DNA from: Pseudomonas sp. MH9.2 | GTDB taxonomy: Bacteria > Pseudomonadota > Gammaproteobacteria > Pseudomonadales > Pseudomonadaceae | DNA length: 64,000 nt | Assembly (NCBI RefSeq): GCF_034353875.1 | Contig: NZ_CP133784.1 | Span: 3,686,501-3,750,500 of the forward strand | Direction: 5' to 3' | Shown: one piece after another, positions 1 through 23,460 of the stretch | Numbering within the stretch: position 1 is the first letter of the stretch | How the letters are laid out: each line of letters begins with the position of its first letter | The notes under the pieces: generated by a model | Databases searched by the model: none | Seen by the model: the letters and a program-made list of their open reading frames with translations, nothing else | What the model was told of the DNA's origin: nothing | Made by a program: the position numbers and the translations under genes

Positions 1-1439
1 TTGCGCAGTTCACCCATGCGACTGCGCAGGGTTGCGGACTCACCATACCAAACGGTAGGTGCCGCGCTGAACAATCCAATCACCGAGCGCGAACCGGCGG
101 AAACTTCGCCGGTTTGCACCAATGACCAGTCGGTGCCGCCCGTGCTGTTTTCCTGCTGTTCCAGCTCATAGGCGAAGGTGCCGAAATCGACCTTGTCACC
201 CACCAACGAAAACTGCGCATCGCCGCTGCCGGTATGCACTATTTGCTGCGGATCAGCGCCTTCCAGCGGATCTATACCTGTGTTCTGTACGCGCAATTGA
301 TGACTGCCGGTTGCGCTGCCGGTGACATCGAGAAAATCACTCTTCTGCGCCGCCAGATCGGTGCCCAAGGCAAAGGTCCCCGAGCCATTCAGCTCGCCAA
401 CGGTCAGTGTCTGGAAGCCGTCTGAAGTACCGCGCAAGTCAACGGATCCTCCGTTCAGTTCGAGCTTGCCGACCGTGGAATTCCCTTCCATCAGCCATGT
501 CGAGGAACCATCGATATTCAACGTCGTAGCGTTGTTGATAGCGCCAGTCAGGCTGGCATTGTTCGCCAAAGACAGGTGCGCGATCGAGTCACTGGTGACC
601 AGAACATCGCCCACCAGTTGGCTGTCATTAATAGCGACATAGCCGGTTGCCGCATTATTAACTTCAAGGGCAATACCGTTACCACCGGACAGCGTCGAAC
701 CGTTGCGGATATCGATATGAACATCTTGATTGGCAGCCGCCGATCGGGTGATGACAATGGCGCTGCCTTCCAGGCCCACAACGGACGACTGATCGACTAC
801 CAGCGACGCAGGTCTTTCAGTTGCGCCGGTTGCATCACCCCAAATGACGACACCGTTATTATCGCCCGTGACCACACTGTTCTGATTGAATGAGGCGCTG
901 GCACCGGCCACCACTACGCCCGCGCCACCGCTGACAAAACCATTGCCCGAAGCACCCGCGTGGCCTTCAACATGCGTATTGAACAGTTCAAGGGATGCAC
1001 TGTCGGTAACGTTAATGCCTCGGTCCGTCCCCGAAACGAAGCTGTTGCTGATGTGTGCGCTGGAAGCCTGCTCAAACCCCGATAGCCGAATGCCGAAACT
1101 GCTGACGTCGGGCCGGGCGGGATCAGCCTCGGCGATGATGGTGCTGTTGTTGATAACGGCACGGCTGTTGTACAGCGCGATGGCAGGTTCACCCGTGGAA
1201 GTGACCCTGCCGCCGTCCATTTCGAGTCGGGAATCGGCGGTCGCATGGATACGTCCTGTTTCGCCCCCAGCCTTCACGATCAAATGTGAGTCCTGAAGAT
1301 TGAACTCATAAACGGGGTCGCCATCTCGGATGACCACATTTTGCCCCGGCGGTACATCAATGGCGGCCTCGCACACGTTGGCCGTTATCACGCCCAATAC
1401 CATCACCAGTTGCCCGGCTTGCCCTTTGAACCGCTTCAT
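1..1439 (-). CDS. Pertactin-type autotransporter, 3' end outside window (partial)
   Basis: The reading frame opens at ATG 1439 with a signal-like start (MKRFKGQAGQLVMVLGVITA) and runs without a stop to the window edge, about 480 codons. The first part is a beta-helical passenger, rich in Gly, Ser, Thr and Asn, with repeated 'NGS', 'DNSQLVGD' and 'TGSGTFALGTDLA' turns. The last visible residues (FSAAPTVWYGE…LRSRMGELR) match the join to the outer-membrane beta-barrel of its neighbour at 1605–4136, so the missing part should be that barrel. Type V secretion by family knowledge: the passenger is displayed on or released from the cell surface. It is a diverged paralogue of the next gene. The specific ligand is unknown. 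Confidence 0.85.
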   Translation of the reverse strand, partial: MKRFKGQAGQLVMVLGVITANVCEAAIDVPPGQNVVIRDGDPVYEFNLQDSHLIVKAGGETGRIHATADSRLEMDGGRVTSTGEPAIALYNSRAVINNSTIIAEADPARPDVSSFGIRLSGFEQASSAHISNSFVSGTDRGINVTDSASLELFNTHVEGHAGASGNGFVSGGAGVVVAGASASFNQNSVVTGDNNGVVIWGDATGATERPASLVVDQSSVVGLEGSAIVITRSAAANQDVHIDIRNGSTLSGGNGIALEVNNAATGYVAINDSQLVGDVLVTSDSIAHLSLANNASLTGAINNATTLNIDGSSTWLMEGNSTVGKLELNGGSVDLRGTSDGFQTLTVGELNGSGTFALGTDLAAQKSDFLDVTGSATGSHQLRVQNTGIDPLEGADPQQIVHTGSGDAQFSLVGDKVDFGTFAYELEQQENSTGGTDWSLVQTGEVSAGSRSVIGLFSAAPTVWYGESATLRSRMGELR

Positions 1440-1525
1440 TGCCACGCCCACACCTTGAATAATCGAGGGGCGCCATTTGATAGAGAAGGACTATATAAAA
1501 AGATCAGGCATTTCAGCAGTTGCTG

Positions 1526-1604: not shown

Positions 1605-4136
1605 TCACCAGGTATATCGCACACCCAAGTTGACTCCCCAAGGCTGTTCAATGTTATTGCCGTTGCTGTAATCAATGTCAGCGTGCAATTGCAGCACATT
1701 GGATAGTTGTGCCGCGATGCCAGCCCCCACTTCGCCTCGGCTACCGGAAAGGTCATCACTGAAGGTGGTGCGATTGACGCTGACCTCATTGCTCTTGGCA
1801 AACTCATGGGCCGCCGCCAGTTTCACGTAGGGCTGAACGAAACCACCGGACCTCAACGCAATCGTTCGTCCTACATGAGTTCCTACTTTGCCAAGGAACG
1901 AGTCGGCTTTGTTACTTTTGGCTTCAAGTCCGTGGTCCAGGCCGTAATTCTCGCCCGTCACCCACAAGGCCGAACCCTGCAGATAGGGCTCGACGAACCA
2001 GCCGTCCGAGAAATCGAAGTGTCTGCCGGCCTCCACCGAGCCGCCTACGCCGTAGTTGCCGTAATCGCCCTTGGCCTTGACCCCGTCGCTCATGGTGACA
2101 TCAGCTTTGTTTTGGAAGCGGTTGGCCTTGATGATCGCATCGATGTAATAGCCGTCATTCGCAAGCCAAGTGGTGTAAAGCCCGAGGTAATAACTGCTGA
2201 CCCGGCCATTGGAACCCAGTTGCATGTTCAGATCAGAGTTGCTGTATCCCCCTAATACGCCAAGAAGCCAATGACCGTCGGTGGATATTGGCGTATCTGC
2301 GCCGAACGATATGCCTTGCTGAACTTGGCTGTAATGCACTTGATCAGCTGCGGAAACGTTGTACTTGTTGCCATACGTGCGGGCCCAGGCGCCGCCTTGC
2401 TCGTGGCCATTGCGTAACTCACCCATGCGGCTGCGCAGCGTGCTCAACTCGCCATACCACACCGTCGGCGCGGCACTGAATACGCCGATGACAGCCCGAG
2501 CACTTGGACTGATGATCGGGTCGCCCCCGCTGTCGCCCCCATCACCCCCATCACTGCCATCACCGCCATCGCCCGTGGTCTCCTGGACCAGATACCAATC
2601 GGTGCCACGCTGCTGTAAACGGTAAACAAAAGTACCCGCGTCAACTTGGCCACCCAACACAGTGAAGCTCGCTGTTCCGCTGCCGGTATGGACAACCTGC
2701 TGAGCATGATTTTCCTGGAGGGGTTCGACCCCCGTATTCTGAATGCTAAGCGAATGACTGCCACTGGCAGCGCCGGTGATGTTGACCAGATCACTTAGAT
2801 GACCTGCAAGGTCGGTACCCAGCGCAAACGTGCCGCTTCCTGTCAGGCTCGATGCGGTCAAGGTTCGAAACGCACCCTTGCCGCCGCGCAAATTCACGGT
2901 CCCACCGTTCAAGGTCAGCGCCCCAACGGTCGAGTTGTTGACCATGTTGAATGTGGACGTAGTGTCAATCGAGAGGCTTTGCGCGCTGCTGACGGTGCCT
3001 GTCAAGCGGCCGCCATGGGTCAGCGTCAACGTGGCGGGCGTTTGAGCGTCTTGGACAATATCACCGGTCATCACACTGTTATCCAGACTCAGGCTGCTGA
3101 TGTTGCTCATCGCGCCGGTAAACACAGAACCAGCAGCCATAGTGACTGATGCCGAAGATCCGGACGGCTCAACCACGTTCCCGGTAACCTGGCTGGCATT
3201 CATGTTCAGGCTGCTGATATTGCTCATGGTCCCGGTCAGCGTTGCGCCATTGCGCATCAAGACATCTGCGGTAGCGCCGGCCAACACCTGCACATCACCC
3301 ACCAGTTGACTGTTATCAACGGTAAGTTGTGCCGCGGTCACCGAACCAACCGCTGATGTTGCAAGCCCAACTTCAAGCAGCACTCCATTCCCCGCCCTCA
3401 TCGTGGAGCCGTTGAGCACTTCAATATTGGCACGCATCGGCGGGATGCCAATATTGCCTACAAGAATGGCACTGCCCGTACCGGATGTAAGGCTGGAACC
3501 ATCGAGAACCAACGTTGGCGTCGCAGTTAAGGTTCTGTTGGAAAATAAGCCAGCCCCATGATTACTGCCCGTTGCCTGACTGCCCTGAAGGATGACTTCC
3601 CCCCCCACCAGCGAGATGCCAAGGCCGTCACCGGCAATTGATGCGCCTACAGCGCCAGTGCCCGTGATTTGTGAATTAATCACCGTGGCGATACTTCCTC
3701 CCGAGACATTCAGGCCACGCCCGGCCGCAGAAATAATGCTGTTGGTGACCGTTGCGGTAGAACCCGGAACCGTGTCATCTGCTCCGCGCACAACGGACAG
3801 GCCGGTATTGCGGGTGGAAACAAGGGTCGAGTCAGTGATCGCTCCAATGCTGTTGGTTAACACCAGTGCGCTCAGTGAAGTGGCAGAAACAGTTGCACCA
3901 TTGAGAACCACCGTTGACCCGGCTGTGGTGACGATGTCCAGTGTTTGCCCGCCTGGGGCTACCGTCAAACTGGCTGCGGTTAACGACCATTGTTGCGCCG
4001 GTTCCCCGTTATTCACGGTAACGGATCCACCTGGGGGCACATTGAGCCCCCACGCTTGCCCGCTTACAGTAATAACCGTTATGGCGACGATCCATTGGCC
4101 GCAGAACTGAAGATTGTAGCGATCACTGATGTCCAT
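1605..4136 (-). CDS. Pertactin-type autotransporter with complete beta-barrel
   Basis: 843 residues. ATG 4136 is preceded by a strong ribosome site (GGGAGG). Residues 1–30 form a signal peptide (hydrophobic WIVAITVITVSGQAWG). Residues about 30–500 are a right-handed beta-helix passenger of pertactin type with many short 'SLSLDNS', 'TGDV' and 'GTM' repeats. A flexible linker of Gly and Asp follows (GGDGSDGGDGGDSGGD, about 525–540). The last ~280 residues are the translocator barrel (starting near FSAAPTVWYGE) and end in the aromatic residue Trp (GVRYTW), as expected for BAM recognition. No RGD motif or protease triad is evident. It is probably an adhesin or biofilm factor. The paralogue 1–1439 lies directly downstream, with its own 165-bp upstream region. 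Confidence 0.9.
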   Translation of the reverse strand: MDISDRYNLQFCGQWIVAITVITVSGQAWGLNVPPGGSVTVNNGEPAQQWSLTAASLTVAPGGQTLDIVTTAGSTVVLNGATVSATSLSALVLTNSIGAITDSTLVSTRNTGLSVVRGADDTVPGSTATVTNSIISAAGRGLNVSGGSIATVINSQITGTGAVGASIAGDGLGISLVGGEVILQGSQATGSNHGAGLFSNRTLTATPTLVLDGSSLTSGTGSAILVGNIGIPPMRANIEVLNGSTMRAGNGVLLEVGLATSAVGSVTAAQLTVDNSQLVGDVQVLAGATADVLMRNGATLTGTMSNISSLNMNASQVTGNVVEPSGSSASVTMAAGSVFTGAMSNISSLSLDNSVMTGDIVQDAQTPATLTLTHGGRLTGTVSSAQSLSIDTTSTFNMVNNSTVGALTLNGGTVNLRGGKGAFRTLTASSLTGSGTFALGTDLAGHLSDLVNITGAASGSHSLSIQNTGVEPLQENHAQQVVHTGSGTASFTVLGGQVDAGTFVYRLQQRGTDWYLVQETTGDGGDGSDGGDGGDSGGDPIISPSARAVIGVFSAAPTVWYGELSTLRSRMGELRNGHEQGGAWARTYGNKYNVSAADQVHYSQVQQGISFGADTPISTDGHWLLGVLGGYSNSDLNMQLGSNGRVSSYYLGLYTTWLANDGYYIDAIIKANRFQNKADVTMSDGVKAKGDYGNYGVGGSVEAGRHFDFSDGWFVEPYLQGSALWVTGENYGLDHGLEAKSNKADSFLGKVGTHVGRTIALRSGGFVQPYVKLAAAHEFAKSNEVSVNRTTFSDDLSGSRGEVGAGIAAQLSNVLQLHADIDYSNGNNIEQPWGVNLGVRYTW

Positions 4137-4464: not shown

Positions 4465-5214
4465 ATGGCACATTCTCACTCACGCAAAAAAATTAAAACT
4501 CGCGCTAACCTCCCGAGCCTGGAAGTCCCTGCTGCTTTGGAGGACGGACGGATTCCCCTCGATCGTTATGAAGAGGATCTTTTAGTGCGGATACCTCATT
4601 TCGCGGAAATGAAAGAGTCCGACATACTTAACCTTTATGACGGTGTCACCTCGCTGATCATGACCTATACCCTTAAAAAAGGAGAGGCTGAAGACCCTGA
4701 TTTCAATGCGGAATTATTTATTCCTAAAGGGCGTTTTCCACCTGCCGGAGGCTTCACTGAATTAAGTCTGGATTATGAAATTATAGATCCTGTGACGGAA
4801 GACGGCGAACGCTCAGGGAAAACAGTGACCGTTGTATTCGACAGAGAATCCCCAGGTGGCACTTCGTTGACCGCGCTTTCTTTCACCGAAGAGCAAAAAG
4901 AAGGTATCACCGAAGAGGACTTGGTCGATGGCTACTTGCCGGTGACGGCCTATGCCTGGTACGGAATGGAAAAGGGTGATTTTATCACGCCTTGGCTAAG
5001 CGAACTCCCCGCCTCTGCTGACTCACAAGAGCTGTACCTGATTAAAAATGCAGAAATAGAAATAAGTACGGCCGGAACAAGGACGTCGCTAGGATTTCCT
5101 AAAGGTAGTTTCACGGCAGCCGCCGATTACTATTTTGGGTATCAAGTACGCGACAAGTTGGGTAACACTTCAGTGATCTCTAGCACGGTAAAAATTGCGG
5201 TTAACGTGGGTTAA
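4465..5214 (+). CDS. Ig-like fold hypothetical protein, first gene of array
   Basis: 249 residues, GGAG eight bases before ATG. There is no signal peptide; the N-terminus is basic (MAHSHSRKKIKTRANLP). Two beta-sandwich modules can be seen (about 35–130 and 135–249). They share with the next gene the phrases 'VRIPHFAEMK/VVKVPKSPEMK', 'VTVVFDRESPGG/LTVRFDRLAPGG', 'GITEEDLVDG/GITVSDLVDG' and a final 'Y.VRDKLGN/YRVTDWAGN'. It is 35 bp from the next gene and probably cotranscribed with it. The function is unknown; cell-surface or carbohydrate contact is possible for such folds. It belongs to a group of Ig-like repeat proteins in Pseudomonas with no assigned role, as far as I can tell. Confidence 0.8.
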   Translation: MAHSHSRKKIKTRANLPSLEVPAALEDGRIPLDRYEEDLLVRIPHFAEMKESDILNLYDGVTSLIMTYTLKKGEAEDPDFNAELFIPKGRFPPAGGFTELSLDYEIIDPVTEDGERSGKTVTVVFDRESPGGTSLTALSFTEEQKEGITEEDLVDGYLPVTAYAWYGMEKGDFITPWLSELPASADSQELYLIKNAEIEISTAGTRTSLGFPKGSFTAAADYYFGYQVRDKLGNTSVISSTVKIAVNVG

Positions 5215-5249: not shown

Positions 5250-7205
5250 ATGACCATTATTCAAGCGTATGCGGGTGTAAAAAAAACTGCAGTCACTCTT
5301 GCGCCGTCCGCATTGCCCGCGCTCACGGTGCCGGCTGCTGATTCCCTGAGGGGGACTATTCCAATTGCATTGCTGACAGCCGATGTCGTTGTGAAAGTAC
5401 CAAAATCCCCAGAGATGAAAAATACCGACTCTATTCAGCTTCTTAGGGATGGCGTCGCTTATGGCGCTCCTGTTGACTTGTCCTTGGTTGATCTTACCGA
5501 TCCGTCACTTACTGAATTTGATCTTCTGATCAAAGTAGCGGATTTTCCGGCAAACGGAACGGACACGCGGGTTGTACTGAATTACCAAATTTACGACACC
5601 GCTTCCGAAGACGGTCAAACTACGTTATTGCCACTCACGGTCCGGTTTGACCGGCTCGCGCCAGGCGGTGATCAGTTACCACCCTTGCTATTTACCGAGG
5701 CCCAGCTTTCAGGTATTACCGTTAGCGACTTGGTGGACGGGCTTCTAAATATTGTCGTAGACCCCTTTTTCGACAGCGAAGCGGACGACCTTGTAGAACT
5801 GTGGCTGGGAACCAGCCCCACAACAGGTTCTTTTCTTTCGCCAACGTTCATGGTGACAGATCCTAAACGTCAACTGCCTGTCACCATTACCGAGGCCGAT
5901 CTGAAAGCCACGGCCGATGGTAAAAAATATTTTAGCTATCGGGTAACCGACTGGGCTGGAAATGTCCGGAGTAATCCGGAATCTACCGCCATTGACGTAT
6001 TCCTCAATCTGCCGGAATTACTTGCACCACTGGTGCCTGAAAACGATGACGGTCTGATTACCTACAACGATGCCGTGGCCGATGTCGGGGTGGTCATTCC
6101 GCACTACGACGGTGCCGTGGCAGGTGATTTTATTTACGTCATTTGGGGTGGCCGGACCATCAGTCCCTTCTCCGTGTCCGACCCAGTTCCACCTGCCCCC
6201 GATCCGATCGCGACCATTGCCGTACCCTACGACGTCGTAGCGGAAGTCGGAAACGGTCGGGATATCAAGGTCAGCTACTGGCTGCAGAGAACCGGTTCGC
6301 CTCGTGTCGAGTCCCTTGTAGCCTTGGTCAATGTCGACTTGCGTACACCTGGCGGACCAAACCCAGACCCAGACCCAACGACGCCTGAGCATGAGAACAT
6401 CAAACCCCCCAGCATCCAATGTGGGACCAGCCCGGTTAACACGATAAATCCCGGGAATTATGGGCAGAATGCAACCGCAACCATTCCCCGTGTAGGGGAA
6501 GACTTAAACGTCATCTGGACTATTGGCGATGTCATTCAATTGTACTGGGGCACAGTGTCTTTGCCTGAGATGCCATTTGTCACGGTCACCGCGCCGAACG
6601 AAGGGAGCAATATATTGATACCGGTACCTTTTGTTGCAGTTATCGGGGCCATAGGTGTCGGTGATATCAATGTCTATTTCACCGTCACAAGAAAGCTGGA
6701 TGCTACTAACACCGTGACCGTTAAATCTAAAGTTCAGGTAGTCACGGTTGCGTCGAGTGCTGAACTTCCCGGTGATGGCGCTCCGCTAGCACGGGGTATT
6801 TTTCCGGAAGCAAACGCCAGCAATATTATTACCCGGGCCGCCGGCCTAAACGGCACGACTTTCCGTATTACCTTGTCGGGGGTAAGCAATATAGACATCG
6901 GTAGGTCGCCCGTCCTAAGTTATAACTTTGTGGGCGTCAGCAGCGTGGACGCAACAGATCCAGCTGCCCCGCCCATTGAAGCGTCGAGATTGAAGTCGGA
7001 TGACGTGCTCATTACTCAGGCGATGCTGGCGGCCGGTTATTACGAGGTTGCGCTGCCGTACTCGTTGATCTACTTGATTTGCCGGAACGGTGCGATTCTC
7101 GACTACAGCATCAGCAATGATCGCGGCAGAACTAACGGGCTCCAGAAGTTTGTCCGGTTTGCCATGAACGAGGCCGGAGGCAGTTGTTCGATCCCCTTAC
7201 TTTAG
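5250..7205 (+). CDS. Multi-domain Ig-like repeat protein
   Basis: 651 residues, AGGG-type ribosome site before ATG. No signal peptide or membrane segment. Residues about 45–255 are two modules paralogous to the whole of the 4465 protein. Residues about 260–370 are an Ig-like module of the type found in the 8718 gene ('VVIPHYDGAVAGDFIYVIWGG'). A Pro-Asp linker follows (GGPNPDPDPTTPE, near 370), then at least two further beta-rich modules. It looks like a fusion of the first-gene type with extra repeats. Close spacing to 4465 suggests a bicistronic unit under the 4399–4428 promoter. The role is unknown. Confidence 0.8.
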   Translation: MTIIQAYAGVKKTAVTLAPSALPALTVPAADSLRGTIPIALLTADVVVKVPKSPEMKNTDSIQLLRDGVAYGAPVDLSLVDLTDPSLTEFDLLIKVADFPANGTDTRVVLNYQIYDTASEDGQTTLLPLTVRFDRLAPGGDQLPPLLFTEAQLSGITVSDLVDGLLNIVVDPFFDSEADDLVELWLGTSPTTGSFLSPTFMVTDPKRQLPVTITEADLKATADGKKYFSYRVTDWAGNVRSNPESTAIDVFLNLPELLAPLVPENDDGLITYNDAVADVGVVIPHYDGAVAGDFIYVIWGGRTISPFSVSDPVPPAPDPIATIAVPYDVVAEVGNGRDIKVSYWLQRTGSPRVESLVALVNVDLRTPGGPNPDPDPTTPEHENIKPPSIQCGTSPVNTINPGNYGQNATATIPRVGEDLNVIWTIGDVIQLYWGTVSLPEMPFVTVTAPNEGSNILIPVPFVAVIGAIGVGDINVYFTVTRKLDATNTVTVKSKVQVVTVASSAELPGDGAPLARGIFPEANASNIITRAAGLNGTTFRITLSGVSNIDIGRSPVLSYNFVGVSSVDATDPAAPPIEASRLKSDDVLITQAMLAAGYYEVALPYSLIYLICRNGAILDYSISNDRGRTNGLQKFVRFAMNEAGGSCSIPLL

Positions 7206-7320: not shown

Positions 7321-8538
7321 ATGAGTGCATTAACCGCAGCACAAGAAAAAACCACCGACGCGTTCGCTTCGGCAACCAAGGACTCCTCGTTGATGGCCCT
7401 CAACAGCCTCGCACCCACGCAAAATACTGATTACCCCAAACCGCATGTGCAAGAAGCCCCTTCGGATACTCTGGACCCGCTGCTGGGTAACCCGTCCGGG
7501 GTGCATGTCGAGGTGGCTTATCCATCAATGAGGTCGTCCGACATCATTGGCTTGTTCTTTAACGGCAACGACACCTTTGCGGTGCAAAACGGCAGTGTGT
7601 TTGGCACGGTGACGTTCCTGGCTCCCGTCGCCGATGTCACCCTCGCGGTGGGCAAAACCATTCAGGTCATCTATGCCGTGGTCCGTCCGGATGGGGTGAT
7701 CCTGTCCGAGATTCTGAACCTGATCGTGCAACCGATCGCGGCAGACAAACTGCCCACCCCGCAGATCACTCAGGCCTCGGAGGGCGTGCTGGACTTGACG
7801 ACGTTTGACGGGGATGCCGATGTGACGGTTGAGGCCTGGCCGTTGATTGCGGTGGGGCAAACGGTTTGGTTGACGGTTACAGGGCCGGGTGGGGTACCGA
7901 TTTGGAAGTTGTTGGAGGGGTATGCGATTACGGCAGCGGATGTGACTAATGGGATTGGTCGGGTTATTGCGCGAGGGGAGTTGGATAGGCTTGAGGAAGG
8001 AGGGGAGTTGAGGGTGGTTTTTAAGGTTGGGTTTGAGTGGGGGAGTGATGAGTCGATAGCTGTTGGATTTCCGATTTCAATTTTCAATATAAGTCTGAAC
8101 TGGCGTATAGAAATCGAAAATTTCGAAACTGCAATTCACAATGAAACTATCCCGGCCGGAGGCGTTAGGCAATTCCCGGCACTAACTGTTTTAGCCAGAA
8201 CCGAAGTTAAAATCGTAAATGCGGGCTATAGCCCTTGGGCAACAAATTATATGGTTTGGATGCTTGGCGGCACAGTAGAGTTCAGACTTGCAACACCCGC
8301 CGAGCGCGTGGTTTTTGGAATCTACTCTGATTCAGTCGGTACGATAACAATCAATTATCTTGATGTGCAGGGACTGTCGTTGTCTGTGTACCAGTTTGGT
8401 GGCGTGCTTGGTAAATGGGTCGAGTATACTTGTGATTCTGGCAAGAAAATATACACTATATCTGTAATTTATAGCCGCGGTGATCGCGGTGCAATAGTCA
8501 TGGATAATTTTTCCATAGCGCACCGACCCGCGCCATGA
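7321..8538 (+). CDS. Array paralogue 1: constant N-terminus, variable C-terminal domain (in frame)
   Basis: 405 residues; AAGGACG before ATG. Residues 1–57 are a leader without signal-peptide character (MSALTAAQEKTTDAFASATK). Ig-like modules lie at about 58–140 and 145–250, and a separate beta-rich domain at about 262–405 ends 'IVMDNFSIAH'. The first ~190 residues are close to identical with the genes at 11394, 12748 and 14066, while the C-terminal domain is strongly diverged. The C-terminal pattern (FE…FPALTV…DNFS) resembles jelly-roll, lectin-like domains; this is inference. This copy reads through without a frameshift. The segment 7855–8060 is very G-rich and C-poor on the coding strand, unlike the 5' part. 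Confidence 0.8.
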   Translation: MSALTAAQEKTTDAFASATKDSSLMALNSLAPTQNTDYPKPHVQEAPSDTLDPLLGNPSGVHVEVAYPSMRSSDIIGLFFNGNDTFAVQNGSVFGTVTFLAPVADVTLAVGKTIQVIYAVVRPDGVILSEILNLIVQPIAADKLPTPQITQASEGVLDLTTFDGDADVTVEAWPLIAVGQTVWLTVTGPGGVPIWKLLEGYAITAADVTNGIGRVIARGELDRLEEGGELRVVFKVGFEWGSDESIAVGFPISIFNISLNWRIEIENFETAIHNETIPAGGVRQFPALTVLARTEVKIVNAGYSPWATNYMVWMLGGTVEFRLATPAERVVFGIYSDSVGTITINYLDVQGLSLSVYQFGGVLGKWVEYTCDSGKKIYTISVIYSRGDRGAIVMDNFSIAHRPAP

Positions 8539-8661
8539 GTCAATGGGACTGATTCATCAGCGAAAGAATAAGGCAGTTTGATTTATTCATATGATTGGTT
8601 GCGGAAGTTGGGGTCAAGTTTTCAGTAGCGCGTTGAAACTAAATCAAACCCTTCCCGCTTC

Positions 8662-8682
8662 GTCAGAGCGTAACGTTCTGAC
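8662..8682. promoter_or_regulatory. 21-bp inverted repeat upstream of the 851-residue gene
   Basis: Arms GTCAGAGCGT and ACGTTCTGAC pair at 9 of 10 positions around a single A. It lies 35 bp before ATG 8718. It could be an operator or an RNA hairpin in the leader. A degenerate, similarly placed GTCAGAGC…CTGGCGGG element precedes the gene at 12748, so a shared leader feature is possible. Confidence 0.35.
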
Positions 8683-8717
8683 AGTCTATCTAAAGTTAAA
8701 CATTAAGGACGGCAACC

Positions 8718-11273
8718 ATGAACATCGACGATCTCGGCCCTCTGGTCTTCAGTGACTTCAACGACTCCGACGAAAACCCCCGCCGCGGCCTGGGGTATCA
8801 CCAACTCTATGACCCCAACAAGAGAATCGGACTGACCGCCAAACTCCCCGACGTCACGCGCGTGGGCGACACCATCACGCTGTACTGGAATAACAACGAC
8901 GTGCAGCAGTACAACCTCGATCAGCCGACCATCGACCAGGGCTGGCTGAGTTTCAGCGTGGGCACTGTCCTTGTTCAGGACCCCGGCGCCGAAGTGTATT
9001 ACACACTGTTTGACAACCAGGCCGGGGACTTGCAGACATCGCCCACGCGCACCGTCGCGGTCAGCCGCCTATCGCCGGGGGATTTGGACCCCGATACCTC
9101 GACCGCCATCAACGAAAATCTGGTGGCCTGCACGGTCAGCCCTGATCCGGTAAATAACCCAGCTGCCGATGTCATCGTCACCGTGCCTGCATGGGCTTAT
9201 CAAGAAGTAGGCGATGAACTGACTGTGATGTGGAACAACCTGCGCGTGATCCATCCGGCGCTGACAACGTTAGGGCCGCAAAACGTCGTGGTCCCCCCAG
9301 AGACGCTCGAAGCGGGCGGCAGCAGTGACATGCTGCTGGTCAATTATGAAGTCCGCGACATTGTGGATAACTACTCGTTGGTGTCACCGTCAACTTATGT
9401 GCGGGTTGAGATTGATCCAGATGCGCTGGCTTCCCCTCGGGTTAATGAGGCCGACCGCGTTACGTTGATCCTCAATCTGGAAGCGCTCGGCGATGCTGAT
9501 GCGCATGTGGCGATTCCTTCTTACACCGGCAACGGAAAAGCCTACACCGTCACCCTCGACTGGGTAGGCAAAACACCGACCGCCGACATCAGCCTGACCC
9601 TTGCACCAGTGACAGTCGACGATCCCGGCTTCGATCACGCGACCTTCACCATCCCCAACGCCCACCTGAAACTCATCGCGGGCGGCTCTGCGGTGGTGCG
9701 TTACAGCCTCAGCCAAACAGGCGCTACGCCAGATAAACAATCAAAAACCACCACCATCACCCTCACTGGCTTGCCAGTTCAGCTCGCCCTGGCCGTCGTC
9801 AAAGAAGCTGGCGGCACCACCACCATCGACCTCGCCCTGATCATCGGCGACAGCGCAACGGTAACTATCGCCGCCTATTCCGGCCAAAGCGTCGGCGACA
9901 AAATCGTCGTCAACTGGAAGGGCACCAGCGCTTTAGGCGACCCGGTCAACTACAGCAGCAGTACCGTCATCGTAGTGGGAGGCGAACTGAAAGAAATCAC
10001 CTTCAACGTCCCGAGGGCTTACGCCGATCAACTGGCAGGCGGCGCGCTGGAGTTGAGTTACCAAGTGGTGTTCAGCGCGACGGGCAGCACACAGAACTCG
10101 CCGATTGCAGGGTATACGGTCATCGGAACGCCCCTCCAATTGGCACCGCCTGCGGTGGATGAGGCCAATGGCGCGCTCATTGATCCCGGCACAGTGACCT
10201 TGGCGGCGACAGTACGTATCAAGCCTTACAACGGCAAGGATTTTGGCGACATCATTTACCTGCGCTGGGAGGGCAGAACTCAGACCGGAACCTCGCTCGT
10301 TCACACCGATGAGTACAGCGTAGGGCAAAATGAGAGCAACACAGACGCCACCTTTCTCGTTGATAAAAGTCATCTTGATCCACTGATCAACGGCACGCTG
10401 GCCGTGAGCTATCGCGTGCTGTCAGCGACAACTGAAAACACCCAGCCCTCAAGTGCGGCCACCTACACGGTAGGCACCAGTATCCTGCTGCTTATGCCAG
10501 CGGTGGATAACGCACCAGGCGATGTTTTCGACCCCGCTAAGTACCCACAGGGCACATCTGTACATGTAGACGGTCAGGCCATTTCATTGAAGCGACTGGA
10601 CACCGTCACGATTTACTGGACAGGTGCCACCGCAGACGGCACAGCCTCGCGGGATTTCAGAGCCGCCACCGACAACCAAATGCTCACATGGCCCATAACG
10701 ACTGCATTGATTGGCTTTAGCCGAGACGCAAGTGTCGATGTGTTTTACGAGGTGCTTCGCAGCGCAGGCGGCCAGTCCAAATCGTTCACCAGAACATTAA
10801 GCATTCTGGGCGATGCGGTTCCTGGCGAGATTACCGACGACTTTTCGATCCATACCGGGGACTTGATAACCGTCGGAGGGTCGGTCACTACGCCCCACAT
10901 GACCATTCGGTTTTTATCCGGGACAGGGCAGGCGGGTTTTGCTCCCGGCTACATACTGCCTCCAGAGGCCGCCGACTATTTCGTCGGCACAGTGCTACAA
11001 CTCGGTTATGCCGCCTCAGGCAACCAAACCCTTGAACTTGAACTGAATGTCGAATGCCGCATAGTGAACTGCGATGTCCACGGCGTAGAGACCGGTAGCA
11101 CGGCCATTCGGTATCTGGATGCCAATAAACTAGAGCTTCATGCAGAGGTGCTGCCCAAGGCCAGCAATCAACATTTGCACTATGAAAGCCTTGGCAAGCC
11201 TATTCGTTACATAGAAATCGTGAATCAAAACAAAGACTGGACGCTGTGGGATAACTTTGTAATGCAAGTCTGA
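8718..11273 (+). CDS. Large Ig-like repeat protein with array-type C-terminal domain
   Basis: 851 residues, AAGGA before ATG. After a ~115-residue N-terminal module come about five Ig-like repeats of ~100 residues. Each has the pattern 'V.I..Y.G…GD.I.V.W.G……V…. F.V…L..L.GG.L.V.Y.V', for instance near 'VTIAAYSGQSVGDKIVVNWKG' (split over two strands). The last ~150 residues start at 'ITDDFSIHTGD' and end 'WTLWDNFVMQV', the same kind of C-terminal domain as in the paralogues around it. There is no signal peptide, no membrane anchor and no obvious C-terminal secretion signal. The gene sits between copies 1 and 2 of the array. Function unknown; a structural or binding role is plausible. Confidence 0.8.
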   Translation: MNIDDLGPLVFSDFNDSDENPRRGLGYHQLYDPNKRIGLTAKLPDVTRVGDTITLYWNNNDVQQYNLDQPTIDQGWLSFSVGTVLVQDPGAEVYYTLFDNQAGDLQTSPTRTVAVSRLSPGDLDPDTSTAINENLVACTVSPDPVNNPAADVIVTVPAWAYQEVGDELTVMWNNLRVIHPALTTLGPQNVVVPPETLEAGGSSDMLLVNYEVRDIVDNYSLVSPSTYVRVEIDPDALASPRVNEADRVTLILNLEALGDADAHVAIPSYTGNGKAYTVTLDWVGKTPTADISLTLAPVTVDDPGFDHATFTIPNAHLKLIAGGSAVVRYSLSQTGATPDKQSKTTTITLTGLPVQLALAVVKEAGGTTTIDLALIIGDSATVTIAAYSGQSVGDKIVVNWKGTSALGDPVNYSSSTVIVVGGELKEITFNVPRAYADQLAGGALELSYQVVFSATGSTQNSPIAGYTVIGTPLQLAPPAVDEANGALIDPGTVTLAATVRIKPYNGKDFGDIIYLRWEGRTQTGTSLVHTDEYSVGQNESNTDATFLVDKSHLDPLINGTLAVSYRVLSATTENTQPSSAATYTVGTSILLLMPAVDNAPGDVFDPAKYPQGTSVHVDGQAISLKRLDTVTIYWTGATADGTASRDFRAATDNQMLTWPITTALIGFSRDASVDVFYEVLRSAGGQSKSFTRTLSILGDAVPGEITDDFSIHTGDLITVGGSVTTPHMTIRFLSGTGQAGFAPGYILPPEAADYFVGTVLQLGYAASGNQTLELELNVECRIVNCDVHGVETGSTAIRYLDANKLELHAEVLPKASNQHLHYESLGKPIRYIEIVNQNKDWTLWDNFVMQV

Positions 11274-11393
11274 TCGCCCATTGGGGACGGATCGATTTTC
11301 GGTGCAAGTCCGAAACTGAATCATTCCCCTAACTCGGAGCAGGCCATGTCATGCGCGTGCCTGCCAGCTTCACCCACATCAAGGAAGAACGCC

Positions 11394-12605
11394 ATGAGTG
11401 TATTAACTGCGGCACAGGAAATAGAAATCTCCGACGCGTTTGCCTCGGCAACCAAGAGCGCGTTGTCGACGGTCCTCAACAGCCTCGCGCCCACGCAAAA
11501 TGCTGATTACCCCAAACCGCATGTGCAAGAAGCCCCTTCGGATTCCCTGGACCCGCTTTTGGGTAACCCTTCCGGGGTGAATGTCGAGGTGGTTTATCCA
11601 TCAATGACGTCGTCCGACTTCATTGGCTTGTCCTTCAATGGCAACGACACTTTCGAGGTAAAAAATGGCAGCCTGTTTGGAAAGGTAACGTTTCTGGTCC
11701 CCGTCGCCGATGTGACTCTCGCGGTGGGCAAAACCATTCAGGTCATCTATGCCGTGGTCCGTCCGGATGGGGTGATCCTGTCCGAGATTCTGAACCTGAT
11801 CGTGCAACCGATCGCGGCAGACAAACTGCCCACCCCGCAGATCACTCAGGCCTCGGAGGACGTACTGGATTTGACAACGTTTGACGGGGATGCCGATGTG
11901 ACGGTTGAGGCCTGGCCGTTGATTGCGTTGGGGCAGACGGTTTGGTTGACGGTGAGTGGGCCGGGTGGGGTGCCGACTATGGAGCTGCTGAATGCTTATG
12001 TGATGACGACGGCGGATGTGAGTAAGGGAGTTAGGGGGACTATTGCGCGGGCGGAGTTGGAGAAATTGGAGGATGGGAGTGAGTTGGGGGTGATGTGCAA
12101 AGTTGGGTTTGAGGGCGGGAGTGATGAGGCAGAGGCAGTTGAACTTCCGACTGCCGCATTTAAGACAACTCTGATTAGCTTTGAAGGTTTCGAGACAGCA
12201 AAGGAGGGACGCGTCCCTCCAGAACAGGTAGAAAGCTTCCGAGCATTCAGTATTTCAGCAGCTCAAAGCTGGGTAATTAGATCCGATTATAAATATCCGC
12301 CGTATATCACGGGTTTAATGGCGCATTTTAATCTCGGTCGGATAACCATTACACTAAAATCCCCCGCAAAAAGCATCAGATTTGCAGCTCAATATCAATC
12401 AGGGGATGCCACTATTGCATACAAAGATGAGCAAGAACTTACGATCACCACTCAGCTAGAACCCGCAGTAATTACCTATCCGGCCACAAAATGGATAGAG
12501 TATTTCACTGCGACAAGGAAAATAAAGTCCATAGTAATAGATCGCCCAACAATTCCTGGGTTCTCCGGGATCGGGCTAGATAATTTTACGTTCACATATA
12601 TATGA
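11394..12605 (+). CDS. Array paralogue 2: constant N-terminus, variable C-terminal domain (in frame)
   Basis: 403 residues. An upstream ATG at 11346 is in frame, but ATG 11394 matches the start of the paralogues (MSVLTAAQEIEISDAFASATK) and has AAGGAAG in front, so it is chosen. The module order equals the 7321 gene. The shared part reaches about residue 245. The C-terminal domain (about 255–403) is its own and ends 'GIGLDNFTFTYI'. No frameshift is needed here: the poly-A stretch of copies 3 and 4 is replaced by GGAAATAGAAATC. The 3' part of the shared segment (11930–12130) has the same G-rich, C-poor composition as in copy 1. Confidence 0.8.
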   Translation: MSVLTAAQEIEISDAFASATKSALSTVLNSLAPTQNADYPKPHVQEAPSDSLDPLLGNPSGVNVEVVYPSMTSSDFIGLSFNGNDTFEVKNGSLFGKVTFLVPVADVTLAVGKTIQVIYAVVRPDGVILSEILNLIVQPIAADKLPTPQITQASEDVLDLTTFDGDADVTVEAWPLIALGQTVWLTVSGPGGVPTMELLNAYVMTTADVSKGVRGTIARAELEKLEDGSELGVMCKVGFEGGSDEAEAVELPTAAFKTTLISFEGFETAKEGRVPPEQVESFRAFSISAAQSWVIRSDYKYPPYITGLMAHFNLGRITITLKSPAKSIRFAAQYQSGDATIAYKDEQELTITTQLEPAVITYPATKWIEYFTATRKIKSIVIDRPTIPGFSGIGLDNFTFTYI

Positions 12606-12724
12606 GCTGCGGGGCAGATAAAAGTTTAAGAAAGGGGGCAGGCCGATTTTCGGTGAAGTGTTGAAAATAAATCAGTCTCTACCCGCCCGTCAGAGCATGA
12701 AGTCCTGGCGGGAAACCCAGAAGC

Positions 12725-13300
12725 ATTAAACATCAAGGACGAACACCATGAGCGCATTAACCGAAGCACAAAAAAAGCCTGCGACGCGTTCGCCTCAGCA
12801 ACCAAGAGCGCTTTGTCGACGGTCCTCAACAGCCTCGCGCCCACGCAAAATGCTGATTACCCCAAACCGCATGTGCAAGAAGCCCCTTCGGATTCCCTGG
12901 ACCCGCTTTTGGGTAACCCTTCCGGGGTGCATGTCGAGGTGGTTTATCCATCAATGAGGTTGTCCGACTTCATTGGCTTGTCCTTCAATGGCAACGACAC
13001 TTTCGAGGTAAAAAATGGCAGCCTGTTTGGAAAGGTGACGTTCCTGGTTCCCGTTGCCGATGTGACTCTCGCGGTGGGCAAAACCATTCAGGTCATCTAT
13101 GCCGTGGTTCGTCCGGATGGGGTGATCCTGTCCGAGATTCTGAACCTGATCGTGCAACCGATCGCGGCGGACAAACTGCCCACCCCGCAGATCACTCAGG
13201 CCTCGGAGGACGTACTGGATTTGACAACGTTTGACGGGGGAGGCGATGTAACCGTTGAGGCCTGGCCGTTGATAGCGGTAGGGCAGACGGTATGGCTGAC
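12725..13300 (+). repeat. Long direct repeat, left copy (576 bp)
   Basis: It covers the ribosome site, the start and the constant part of paralogue 3. It matches 14043–14618 at a constant offset of 1318 bp, with only a few differences found by eye (for example gtt/gtc in the 'VVRPDG' stretch). Identity stops abruptly after 'tggctgac', where the two C-terminal halves diverge. Recent duplication or gene conversion is the simplest explanation. Confidence 0.85.
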
Positions 13301-13946
13301 GGTGAGTGGGCCGAGTGGGGGGCCGACTATGGAGTTGCTGAAGGCTTATGTGGTAACGGCGGCGGATGTGAGTAAGGGGGTTAGGGGGACTATTGCGCGG
13401 GCGGAGTTGGAGAAGTTTACGGTTGGGAGTGAGTTGAGGGTTTGGGTTACGGTTGGGTTCGATAGGGGCGGTGATGAGGGAGAGGCGATTAAATTTCCAA
13501 ACCCCGTATATACAATTGAAGATTTTATATTGTTCGAAGCTTTTAATGCTGCAAATCAAGATCTACTCGTAGGGCAATCAATAGGTTTTCCGACAATGGT
13601 GCTCACAGCAAGGGCGGGAAATGTTTTTATTAGAGATGCTGGATTTTTTACTCTGCCCCCGTGGATAACTGGTTCGGCAATAACGCTGGGTAGCCCCTCC
13701 AGCGTGCTGTTAACCCTTAACAAGCCGGCAAGGAAAGTTAGGTTCGGCGCCTTCAAAAGTTTGATATATACAGTTTCATATTTCGATGAGGGCGGAAGTT
13801 TAATATGGTCCCATGTTTCGCAGCAACTCGAATCTAGAATATGGTTTGAATACGCCAGTAGCCCGGATAGAAAAATAAAATCTATTTCGGTGGTTACAGG
13901 TGATAATTCCAGCACGTTTATAGATAATTTCTCTATGACCCAATAG
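12748..13946 (+). CDS. Array paralogue 3, start and body joined by a -1 frameshift at A7
   Basis: ATG 12748 has the same ribosome site and start as the other copies (MSALTEAQKK), but frame 0 ends after 69 codons at 12957 with a sequence unrelated to the family. A -1 shift at A AAA AAG (12771–12777) gives MSALTEAQKKACDAFAS…, which aligns to copies 1 and 2 without any gap. It continues to 13946, giving 399 residues. Alternatives: an inactivated copy missing one A, phase variation in the A7 tract, polymerase slippage, or internal initiation at TTG 12813, which has only a weak AAGAG in front. The C-terminal domain ends 'TFIDNFSMTQ'. Product and role are otherwise as in copy 1; unknown. Confidence 0.7.
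12771..12777 (+). other. A AAA AAG slippery heptamer in paralogue 3
   Basis: The heptamer lies in the right phase (codons AAA and AAG of frame 0) for simultaneous -1 slippage, the same sequence used in E. coli dnaX. The next codon after the slip is GCC, in the frame of the whole downstream protein. A small hairpin (GCGA…TCGC) follows a few bases later. No convincing internal Shine-Dalgarno stimulator is seen. Confidence 0.55.
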
Positions 13947-13961
13947 TAGAGTGAAAATAGG

Positions 13962-13993
13962 GGGCTGATTGTTGTACATAAACCAGCCCTTTC
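13962..13993 (+). terminator. Possible terminator after paralogue 3
   Basis: Arms GGGCTG (13962–13967) and CAGCCC (13984–13989), followed by TTTC. The stem can be extended by TT/AA pairs across a mismatch. The loop is long, so strength is uncertain. It would separate the transcription of paralogues 3 and 4. Confidence 0.35.
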
Positions 13994-14042
13994 ACTAATC
14001 GCCGGGCTCAAACCATAAAGTACTGGGCGGCTCAATCTGGAA

Positions 14043-14618
14043 ATTAAACATCAAGGACGAACACCATGAGCGCATTAACCGAAGCACAAAAAAAGCCTGC
14101 GACGCGTTCGCCTCAGCAACCAAGAGCGCTTTGTCGACGGTCCTCAACAGCCTCGCGCCCACGCAAAATGCTGATTACCCCAAACCGCATGTGCAAGAAG
14201 CCCCTTCGGATTCCCTGGACCCGCTTTTGGGTAACCCTTCCGGGGTGCATGTCGAGGTGGTTTATCCATCAATGAGGTTGTCCGACTTCATTGGCTTGTC
14301 CTTCAATGGCAACGACACTTTCGAGGTAAAAAATGGCAGCCTGTTTGGAAAGGTGACGTTCCTGGTTCCCGTTGCCGATGTGACTCTCGCGGTGGGCAAA
14401 ACCATTCAGGTCATCTATGCCGTGGTCCGTCCGGATGGGGTGATCCTGTCCGAGATTCTGAACCTGATCGTGCAACCGATCGCGGCGGACAAACTGCCCA
14501 CCCCGCAGATCACTCAGGCCTCGGAGGACGTACTGGATTTGACAACGTTCGACGGGGGAGGCGATGTAACCGTTGAGGCCTGGCCGTTGATAGCGGTAGG
14601 GCAGACGGTATGGCTGAC
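14043..14618 (+). repeat. Long direct repeat, right copy (576 bp)
   Basis: Partner of 12725–13300. It carries the same leader, the same A7 tract and the same constant coding part. After 14618 the reading frame enters a C-terminal half found only in this copy. Confidence 0.85.
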
Positions 14619-15282
14619 ACTCATTGGTACGATGGTGGATGGCTCCAGGTTCCAACTAAATCTGCTGGATGGATATATTATTGGTCAACAAGAGATCTTG
14701 AATGGCATTGCGCTGAATATCCCTCAGGTTGACTTGGAGCGATTGAAAGACTCCAGTGAGCTTACCCTGACTATTGAAGTTGGATTTGGCAAATCTCCCT
14801 CGCAGCATGATGCAATGTCTTTCCCTGTGCTTCGATTGAAGGTAAGTGCACAGTTAGAGACGTTTGAGTTCATTCCTGTACAAAGTACGTCCCTTGGGGG
14901 GAGTATTGACACCCCTTTCCTGGAGATCGCACTCGTCTCGGGGAGCACCAGCGCAATTGTGAGCGTTGTTTGCTATCCCCCTGCGGCACCTCGGGACATT
15001 TGGTATCTCCATTACAACGACAATGAAAGCCCTCCTGCGGTATTTGCGATGGAACTCAGATTGAAGTCAACGTACGCGAAAGTTAGTTTTCGGTGGTACG
15101 GACAAGCGAGCCTCTTCGAAGCGTACGATAAAAATCGAATACTATTATCTAGTCAGCGACACCCAAGCGTAGGCCCCAAACCGATAGATATTTCTTTCTC
15201 AAATGTTGGGCTGAACGTTATCAAAATATTTCCGGACCATACCGGCGGAAGTATTATAGAAATAATAAAACTAACTAGATAA
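14066..15282 (+). CDS. Array paralogue 4, start and body joined by a -1 frameshift at A7
   Basis: The arrangement is as in copy 3: ATG 14066, A AAA AAG at 14089–14095, frame 0 closes at 14275, and the -1 frame continues to 15282. The shifted product has 405 residues, the same length as copy 1. The second Ig-like module changes after residue ~184 (LTLIGTMVDGSRFQLNLLDG), so the variable part is longer than in copies 1–3. The end (SIIEIIKLTR) lacks the DNF motif. The frameshift may be inherited from the same duplication as copy 3, so it is not independent evidence for function. An internal TTG start at 14131 is the fallback. Confidence 0.7.
14089..14095 (+). other. A AAA AAG slippery heptamer in paralogue 4
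   Basis: Same heptamer, phase and surroundings as at 12771–12777, inside the duplicated segment. Confidence 0.55.
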
Positions 15283-15408
15283 TAACGACACCTTGACCGG
15301 TGACCTGCAGGAGTCACCCAAACGCACCATTTCGGGCAGCGATAATCGCCGAGCAATTTGGACCCTTCCAGCACAGCTGCTAAACTCCGCTCCCTTCCAG
15401 GAGCCGCC

Positions 15409-16325: not shown

Positions 16326-17579
16326 CTATTCACTTATACCGTGTGCCTCGGCGCTCAATGGGTCGGTTACTTGATCCCTGACCTTGTTTCCGAAAACCAC
16401 GATCTTACCTGTAGCGAGTCCATTGGTACGGATGCTTTTAAGCGCAAGGGGGGTTACGAAGGTACCAAGATTGCCAAAGGTCTCATCGAGCTCCCCATTG
16501 CTCTGGTAACGCGACACTAAACTCACTTCAATCAGAATGGAGTCTCGGGCTGACATCGCTACGTAAACGTTGTTTAGATCGCCTAGCGCAAGGTATCCAA
16601 ACCACGCTAAAGAATCGTTTTGGTAAAACGGCAGTCGAACATGCTGACCGCGGTTAAAGTCATTGTCAAACGTGCCATCAATGCCCAGCTTGCCTAAATA
16701 GTGATGTTGGGTGTCGTTGATGAGTTCGATAGCGATGTAATAGATTGCTCCTTCAGGGGCTGCAATGACCGCGACAATGGGCCTAAGGTTTTTGGGTGCG
16801 GTGTAGGAGCCCTCTACACCAAACGTTGTGTCTAGACTGCCTGCGGTGGTGTATCGAGCAATTCTATTCTCTTTAGCAACCAGCAACGTTGCGTCCTTGG
16901 GCTGGGTTGCAATAAATCCTTCACTGAGGTCGTAATCATCTAATGGCAAAACACCTGTTCCATTGAATGAGGTGTCTAACTCGCCTTCATGGGTGAGGCG
17001 GACTATCGCTTCTCGACCTATGATGGTAATCGTACCGCCTTCACAAATAAAATTACCAGTGTTCTCATGGTTCTCATTGTTTCTATTCGTCCCATCAGCG
17101 CTGGCGGCTGGGCTATTCTTAAAGGTGGGCAGCGTTATTCTTTTCACGCCACCGTTCCCAAAACTTACATCAAGCTCACCGGTAAGGCTTGAACGGAGCA
17201 TTGCTACCTCCTGAAACCATTGGCCCTGTGGGCTCGATGACAATCCCAAGATCAGAATATGCTCTGCCGTTTGGCAGAGTCCCATGATCGACATCTGCCG
17301 AGAGCCGTCGAGAACAGCGGGTTGGAAGTACAATAAGCCGCCGTCTCCAAATGTTGTATCAATCGTTCCATGTTGGCTTAATTTTACCAGCCAATTGGCA
17401 ATGTTTAATTCATTTTTTCCGCCGTATGCAGTGCCGCCGCATAGGTAGCCACCTTGTAGGAGTTGAGTGGTGGCTCCAAAAGAATTAGGTTTAATGATTA
17501 TTTCTTTTCCGAATTCAAACTTTCCATCTGTACCGAATTCAGGGTCTAACGCATTGGGTGTAATCGCTTTACTTTTCAT
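16326..17579 (-). CDS. Delta-60 repeat protein
   Basis: 417 residues, GGAG before ATG 17579. It shows the delta-60 repeat pattern several times: 'LDPEFGTDGKF', 'IDTTFGDGGLL', 'LDVSFGNGGVK', 'LDTSFNGTGVL', 'LDTTFGVEGSY', 'LDETFGNLGTF'. Such repeats form beta-propeller-like arrays; their molecular role is not established. There is no signal peptide and no anchor. The gene carries the same 18-bp palindrome 58 nt before its start as the first gene of the Ig-like array, so the two are probably controlled together. A broken relative lies upstream at about 17804–18010. Confidence 0.85.
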   Translation of the reverse strand: MKSKAITPNALDPEFGTDGKFEFGKEIIIKPNSFGATTQLLQGGYLCGGTAYGGKNELNIANWLVKLSQHGTIDTTFGDGGLLYFQPAVLDGSRQMSIMGLCQTAEHILILGLSSSPQGQWFQEVAMLRSSLTGELDVSFGNGGVKRITLPTFKNSPAASADGTNRNNENHENTGNFICEGGTITIIGREAIVRLTHEGELDTSFNGTGVLPLDDYDLSEGFIATQPKDATLLVAKENRIARYTTAGSLDTTFGVEGSYTAPKNLRPIVAVIAAPEGAIYYIAIELINDTQHHYLGKLGIDGTFDNDFNRGQHVRLPFYQNDSLAWFGYLALGDLNNVYVAMSARDSILIEVSLVSRYQSNGELDETFGNLGTFVTPLALKSIRTNGLATGKIVVFGNKVRDQVTDPLSAEAHGISE

Positions 17580-22023: not shown

Positions 22024-23460
22024 TTAGTCCAATGTAATGACGACAGGCTGTTTTTCCAGGGTTTGGCCATTTTTGCCAAAGAATTGCACCTGAACTTCTT
22101 TTTCATTCGCGCTCACATAGGCAAAGTTGTCTTCGCTGTGAACGTTGCTGATGAGTTGGCTGTTGTAAGCACCGTCGTTCACGATGCTCACCAGCCCATT
22201 CAGTATGAAGTCCGATTCATAGGAGTAAGCATACGTCGCCAACAGCGGGATTTTGTACAGCGGCGAAGACACGATGGTGTGCACGCTAAAGTCGGGGTCG
22301 GCCGAATGGGTCAGTTTACTGATCAGCGAACAATGAACGTCGCCGGAAACGAATACGACGTTCTGGATTTTATTGAAGCGAATGTAGTCGAGGATCTGGT
22401 TGCGTTGTTCCGGGAACGACTTCCAGCTGTCGCCATGGTCTGACTGGAGGTCCGGGTAAAACATGACCGGCGTAACCACGAACTTGACTCGCGCCTCACT
22501 GGTTTTCAACCTGTCGAGCAGGGCGGCCATTTGCACCGTGCCAATCATTTCGGGTGGTGTGGTGTGCAATTTGCGCTCGGTTCGGACGTCCATGACAAAC
22601 CAGTCTGATACGCCGTTGGTGACGGTGTACCAAAACTTCTTCGGGATGACCGCGCCGGAAATGTCTCCGCTCTTCCTGGCGTCGTACAGGGGGCTGTGGC
22701 TGCACTGGTAGATGCTGTACGCCTTGATGGCTGCAGGGTAGAGCGTTTCTATGTCCTGAGGGGTGGCCTTGGCGGGCCAGTTGTCCTCGATCTCATGGTC
22801 GTCGAGGATCATGTAGGTGGGTACGTTGTTCATCATTTTGCCGATACCTTCCTGGCTGAACGCGACCCGGTAGCGGCTGAGGAAATCTTCCAGCGCCGCT
22901 GCCGGGTTGATCAGGTTGAGGTCGTCGGCATAGATCTGATCACCCACCATGAACACGGCATCAATGGGCATTTTCTTTCGGGTGACTTTGTCGAACATCA
23001 CTTTGAACATTTGGTCGCCCAGATCCGGCCATAGGCCCATTCCATCACTGCCCCTCAAAGTATGGATATAACGGCAGGAGCCGACGATGAAGTTGCGCTC
23101 GGCTTTTGGATTGCGGGTGGCCGTTTTGAAGACATAGGTGCTGCTGTGCCACTTCAGTTTGCCGCTGCTTTGCAGGGCGACATTGTCCAGGGTTGTTTCA
23201 GCGCTGAACCAGCCTGCTTGATAGTCATAGACCGTGTTGTCATCGAGGCCATCGAGGATCATGACCGCCGTCATGTCGTTGTAAGGCATCAGTTGGTTGA
23301 ACACAGGTTCAGACCAGTCAGGATTGTGACTGACTCGGTAACGTGCAACGCTGAAATGAGGGGTTTGCGACTCGCTTTTTTTGCTGCGAAGAAATATCCG
23401 GCATTGTTGCGAGGTGGTGTGGCCAACGATAGGGCCGACAGTGGGCTTGAGTATTTCCAT
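22024..23460 (-). CDS. PhoD-like metallophosphatase without signal peptide
   Basis: 478 residues. The N-terminal ~110 residues form a fibronectin-like module (MEILKPTVGPIVGHTTSQQC), as in PhoD proteins. The metal-binding set of the PhoD family follows: FIVGSCR, VGDQIYAD, ILDDHEIEDNW and VSGDVHCS. Such enzymes hydrolyse phosphomonoesters or diesters with Fe/Ca. Classical PhoD is exported by Tat; here there is no twin-Arg or hydrophobic leader, so the enzyme may stay in the cytoplasm or leave by another route. The ribosome site is weak (CGGA). Substrate unknown. No Pho-box is recognised in the short upstream gap. Confidence 0.85.
   Translation of the reverse strand: MEILKPTVGPIVGHTTSQQCRIFLRSKKSESQTPHFSVARYRVSHNPDWSEPVFNQLMPYNDMTAVMILDGLDDNTVYDYQAGWFSAETTLDNVALQSSGKLKWHSSTYVFKTATRNPKAERNFIVGSCRYIHTLRGSDGMGLWPDLGDQMFKVMFDKVTRKKMPIDAVFMVGDQIYADDLNLINPAAALEDFLSRYRVAFSQEGIGKMMNNVPTYMILDDHEIEDNWPAKATPQDIETLYPAAIKAYSIYQCSHSPLYDARKSGDISGAVIPKKFWYTVTNGVSDWFVMDVRTERKLHTTPPEMIGTVQMAALLDRLKTSEARVKFVVTPVMFYPDLQSDHGDSWKSFPEQRNQILDYIRFNKIQNVVFVSGDVHCSLISKLTHSADPDFSVHTIVSSPLYKIPLLATYAYSYESDFILNGLVSIVNDGAYNSQLISNVHSEDNFAYVSANEKEVQVQFFGKNGQTLEKQPVVITLD

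Follow-up and report, generated by a model that had tools for sequence, protein, structure and literature searches.

The window analysed here is a 64,000-nucleotide stretch of the genome of Pseudomonas sp. MH9.2 (G000:C1:3686501-3750500), which is assembled as a single contig of 5.58 Mb. It contains a tandem array of four paralogous genes on the forward strand, designated copies 1 to 4, at the positions given in a preliminary description of the sequence. Copy 1 (7321..8538) is intact and encodes a protein of 405 amino acids, with two immunoglobulin-like (Ig-like) modules at residues 38-246 and a predicted jelly-roll tail at residues 259-404. Copy 2 (11394..12605) is also intact and encodes 403 amino acids; an additional in-frame start is found upstream at position 11346. 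Copies 3 (12748..13946) and 4 (14066..15282) had been taken as intact genes from their first nucleotides, but their ATG frames stop after 69 codons, and the long open reading frames (ORFs) start at 12813 (377 amino acids) and 14131 (383 amino acids), respectively. The tails are encoded at positions 8059..8538, 12135..12605, and 13485..13946 for copies 1 to 3 and from position 14812 for copy 4, which carries a second subtype of the tail. An 851-amino-acid protein is encoded between copies 1 and 2 (8718..11273, forward strand), as previously stated, with four detectable modules followed by a tail of 164 residues. The relationship proposed between this tail and the others is probable but distant (profile-profile E-value of 3.4e-6 and probability of 88%).

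The last 210 residues of the scaffold are 75-89% identical among the six pairs of copies, whereas the tails are 20-35% identical. The division into a constant half and a variable end was thus correctly recognized from the start, except that copy 4 diverges earlier, inside the second Ig-like module. The divergent part of copy 4 (14619..15282) comprises the second half of this module and the tail. When copies 3 and 4 are compared in blocks of 60 nucleotides, an identity of 98-100% is found from just before the ATG to approximately +535, after which the values fall to 63% and then to approximately 50%. Near-identity followed by such a drop is far beyond chance. The divergence occurs at the nucleotide level and includes synonymous sites. 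Since the switch is located inside the second Ig-like module, it coincides with no domain boundary and has the appearance of a recombination boundary. The ratio of nonsynonymous to synonymous substitution rates (dN/dS) between the scaffolds is 0.16-0.20, and the scaffolds are under purifying selection.

The scaffolds and tails also differ in composition. The GC content at third codon positions (GC3) is 0.41, 0.38, 0.38, and 0.47 for the tails of copies 1 to 4, respectively, and 0.68-0.70 for the scaffold (0.62-0.68 with a slightly different cut). Outside the window, GC3 is lower in the tail than in the scaffold for 29 of 31 proteins with tails of 100-199 residues (Wilcoxon p = 3.7e-6) and for 13 of 24 proteins with tails longer than 199 residues (p = 0.046), where both p values are optimistic because some of the sampled proteins are related or identical. 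A chimera of two copies was found in another assembly: the first 186 residues of protein P0002 (402 amino acids; a single protein, known as a protein sequence) equal those of copy 1 and the last 224 residues equal those of copy 2.

The same contrast appears at other loci. Two neighboring genes at locus L034 are 91-100% identical over approximately 1,100 nucleotides, with 99-100% identity in the last 450 nucleotides of this segment, and approximately 50% identical thereafter. Scaffold identity between them is 93%, and the tails have no match to each other; one tail matches tails at L028 and L046 (54-56% identity) and the other matches a tail at L028 (37%), where the scaffolds are 61-67% identical. 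Scaffolds are therefore homogenized within a genome while tails retain kin in other species. Three tandem genes are found at L027 (6509-11548, genome G110). The first two constitute a perfect repeat with a period of 1830, and the second and third are 100% identical over the first 420 nucleotides and approximately 50% identical beyond, with a different tail in the third. Outside the window, 12 same-locus pairs have a scaffold identity of 40% or more. In 11 of them identity is lower in the tail than in the scaffold, the exception being the identical pair at L027; several of these 11 contrasts are mild, as at L031 (scaffold 40-52%, tail 26-32%). One of the pairs, at L029, is in opposite orientations, with 99% identity in the scaffold and 53% in the tail.

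Module matches were detected in 232 of 398 genomes of the genus, and the tail type of the window in 34 of the 398, with the host included in both counts. At 11 of 13 further loci with this tail type, a detected module precedes the tail in the same ORF; at the remaining two (L094 and L095), a sub-threshold Big_6 match is found in its place. The host itself has a second module-protein locus at G000:C1:1100390-1110111 (L092:2391-12112) with ORFs of 311, 358, 619, and 1027 amino acids. A related protein at L030:10301-13732 has a tail that resembles an RCC1-like propeller. The related proteins at L029:3217-7596 and P0008 contain a Big_2-like domain followed by a further C-terminal stretch of approximately 100 residues.

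Structural models were obtained for copies 1 and 4. The front half of copy 1 is predicted to be Ig-like, as are both constant modules of copy 4, and each tail is predicted to be a beta-sandwich jelly roll near the carbohydrate-binding modules (CBMs), with a clear result in copy 1 and a weak one in copy 4. Structure prediction was one of the checks suggested in the preliminary description, and the models agree with its proposal of a constant scaffold with diversified, putatively binding, domains. The tails of copies 1 to 3 are homologous to one another and to the copy-4 type by profile comparison, as opposed to having unrelated folds, and a jelly roll is accordingly a predicted fold by homology for copies 2 and 3. 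A D-N-F motif said to end three of the proteins is present in copies 1, 2, and 3, near the C-terminus but not at it. No match above the cut-offs of Pfam or NCBIfam was obtained for the four copies, and the tails join no named CBM family; two other tails match CBM_4_9 below its cut-off. None of the seven proteins of the window matched a PHROGs family, PADLOC returned no match for the copies, and no sequence relative was found among solved structures for copy 1 or for the copy-4-type profile.

The tails are 9% identical to the jelly-roll CBMs CBM4, CBM29, CBM61, and the domain of 8x8h/8wc1. Unlike these, they have no catalytic partner, are borne on Ig-like modules, and have no signal peptide that could be seen. 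In other genomes this family has a tail type, not found in the window, that is a sequence homologue (E-value of 4.1e-28) of a protein deposited as a galactose-binding lectin (PDB 6yf6), the solved chain of which has 144 residues and no scaffold. The tips are most likely glycan-binding domains.

The preliminary description reported that signal peptides and transmembrane segments are lacking. When the copies were scanned crudely for hydropathy, a hydrophobic N-terminus was indeed not found; inside the proteins, averages over 19 residues peak at 1.60-1.82, which is borderline. No C-terminal type I secretion signal or N-terminal retention module was recognized by Pfam or NCBIfam, and no dedicated predictor was used. 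The array proteins carry Ig-like repeats, as in the BIg/RTX adhesins, according to the copy 4 model. They differ from Ig-repeat adhesins such as SiiE and the Antarctic ice adhesin in being much shorter and in occurring as tandem paralogues instead of one giant protein, and neither a retention domain nor a signal for type I secretion was recognized in them.

The cluster is larger than was initially described. It also includes genes for a 249-amino-acid protein (4465..5214, forward strand), which has 32% identity with the next protein over the N-terminal third of the latter, and for a 651-amino-acid protein (5250..7205, forward strand) with a single detectable Ig-like module. Adjoining these are two pertactin-type autotransporter genes on the opposite strand. 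The first (1..1451) runs off the left end of the window, is 752 amino acids long in the whole-genome ORF, and has its PF03212 match at G000:C1:3686617-3686973. The second (1605..4136) encodes 843 amino acids with Pfam matches to Autotransporter (1.2e-51) and Pertactin (6.6e-26). The Autotransporter domain is absent from the four copies, and no beta-barrel was recognized in the array proteins; unlike in the pertactin family, the autotransporter is a separate neighboring protein. The third and last PF03212 match of the host genome, in a third pertactin-type autotransporter, is located beside the second module locus and is divergent from it.

The association with pertactin-type genes extends to other genomes. 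Linkage was determined in 20 single-contig genomes that we picked from the genomes containing a module match. Of their 28 pertactin-type genes, 18, distributed over 13 of the 20 genomes, have a module match no more than 10 kb away, compared with a mean of 0.26 and a maximum of 4 for random placement (2000 draws). The linked gene is on the strand opposite the nearest module match in 15 of the 18 cases. Over stretches of approximately 14-21 kb, no two of the window and the SLFW/Bc-h/UBA1879/G235, G000b/G018c/G020b, and G029/G062/G111 groups have a flanking gene cluster in common. Because the flanking genes differ among these groups, the linkage does not reflect one inherited site, although the genomes are related and the linkage events are not fully independent.

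Homologues of the 651-amino-acid protein are found at 16 of the 20 non-window loci compared, and the other four (L106, L107, L111, and L120) encode proteins of cluster c0, a family that includes some of these homologues. Three named relatives retain the order of an autotransporter, a protein of 667-725 amino acids, a protein of 756-782 amino acids, and one tail-less scaffold gene that stops 48-49 residues after the scaffold; the counterpart of the 851-amino-acid protein is a single gene in them.

These results are best accounted for by modular recognition proteins in which a constant Ig-like scaffold carries an exchangeable jelly-roll tip that is renewed by recombination, in association with pertactin-type autotransporters. 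We consider this reading probable, with appreciable room for others. A scaffold of two Ig-like modules (up to approximately ten elsewhere) would carry one swappable tip at its C-terminus. The near-identical tandem scaffolds would allow homologous recombination both to keep the scaffolds uniform and to attach one scaffold to another tip. The AT-rich tips were probably acquired from outside, and their change may be adaptive. Copies 3 and 4 are probably silent or poorly expressed in the host and may act as donors. Since the array is genetically linked to pertactin-type autotransporters, its products probably function on the cell surface or beyond it, where they would serve attachment or recognition. 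The predicted fold and the kinship with a lectin are consistent with an extracellular location, for which no export signal was found in the domain and hydropathy scans. More tentatively, the two components might form a two-part system in which the autotransporter helps to export, dock, or present signal-less Ig-scaffold proteins with recombining lectin-like tips. If the favored explanation is true, Pseudomonas species maintain a fixed scaffold with probable glycan-binding tips that can be renewed, and the genetic logic of polymorphic toxins serves recognition rather than killing. It would provide a handle on how pseudomonads alter their targets of attachment or recognition. It also predicts that pertactin-type autotransporters partner proteins without export signals, from genes that are unnamed in the family libraries used.

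The frame breaks of copies 3 and 4 allow another explanation. An identical A7 tract is found in copy 3 (12770..12776) and copy 4 (14088..14094); it lies at codons 8-10 counted from the ATG and is part of an in-frame A-AAA-AAG heptamer that we take to be a slippery sequence. At this tract the ATG frame departs from that of the family, and the shifted frame encodes the family N-terminus. If the system were of the silent-cassette or phase-variable kind, the expressed genes would be copies 1 and 2, and the tract would keep copies 3 and 4 off, either as tail donors or as genes switched by slippage. Proteins with the copy-3 and copy-4 tails and an intact N-terminus (P0003 and P0005, other assemblies) fit this system, as does the single chimera, which joins copies 1 and 2. 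A or T runs with a length of exactly eight number 208 in the host genome and 41-185 in eight other genomes of the genus; as the host has more such runs, a general collapse of homopolymers during assembly is not indicated, and a general assembly artefact is an unlikely source of the tracts. The tract is, however, inside the homogenized segment, where one mutation copied to the neighbor accounts for both, and a shortened protein could start at an internal TTG. As candidate incomplete donors, copies 3 and 4 are out of frame yet almost full length. Searching the host and 18 other genomes for a pattern around the tract gave no match. Such a system is possible but clearly less probable than exchange of tips on a maintained scaffold.

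The frame breaks would also be expected for a decaying cluster, composed of duplicates of a formerly useful gene whose function is being lost. Constant-half orthologues that end 48-49 residues past the scaffold and have no jelly-roll tail occur at four loci (L024:9932-10864, L026:10001-10867, L044:7220-8131, and L043:8743-9876), and neighboring fragments suggest frame breaks at L030 (10301-13732 with the overlapping 13603-14220) and L039 (4954-6210 with 6229-6684). Decay is nevertheless unlikely given the dN/dS values of the scaffolds, the well-formed predicted folds, the same tails on intact proteins in other assemblies, and the wide distribution of the family in the genus. The purifying selection, the intact copies, and the chimera elsewhere likewise speak against the frozen pseudogene cluster that the preliminary description had considered as a counter-case.

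Rhs/CDI-type polymorphic toxins have a constant GC-rich core and an AT-rich exchangeable tip with an abrupt junction. The array shares with the Rhs, CDI, and Maf toxins the constant N-terminal part, the variable C-terminal tip, and the abrupt junction, and a system with a constant delivery part and variable toxic tips would account for these features. Unlike the Rhs/CDI toxins, the array has no recognized toxin domain, immunity gene (for copies 1 to 3), or delivery machinery within its proteins. The earlier statement that adjacent immunity genes are lacking holds for copies 1 to 3, each of which is followed by the next family member after a gap of 119-179 nucleotides, too little space for such a gene; copy 4 is outside this result. 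Because toxin families and, after copies 1 to 3, immunity genes were sought and not found, the array is not classed as a polymorphic toxin. Allowing for a novel toxin family beyond Pfam, NCBIfam, and PADLOC, and given the CBM-like jelly roll predicted for the tails, we regard a toxin system as very unlikely. Least probable of all are tails that merely evolve faster after ordinary tandem duplication without exchange, which would suit the homology of the four tails but not a nucleotide-level switch that includes synonymous sites, the GC3 difference, or the chimera.

A phage or plasmid origin was rejected: no plasmid match was obtained, one weak match was found in an unannotated phage record, and no PHROGs family was assigned. 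Viral kinship by structure was also rejected, with generic matches and low TM-scores. Five leaders were folded singly for a shared hairpin and gave no obvious common structure, with no covariation test. Promoter-like and terminator-like sites are fewer than in shuffles. Copy 4 is followed at position 15358 by an ORF of 296 amino acids, presumably RlmJ-like. A 478-amino-acid PhoD-like phosphatase that shows no obvious connection with the array is encoded at 22024-23460 on the reverse strand. Also downstream of the array, a 417-amino-acid delta-60 repeat (DUF5122) beta-propeller protein is encoded at 16326-17579 on the reverse strand.
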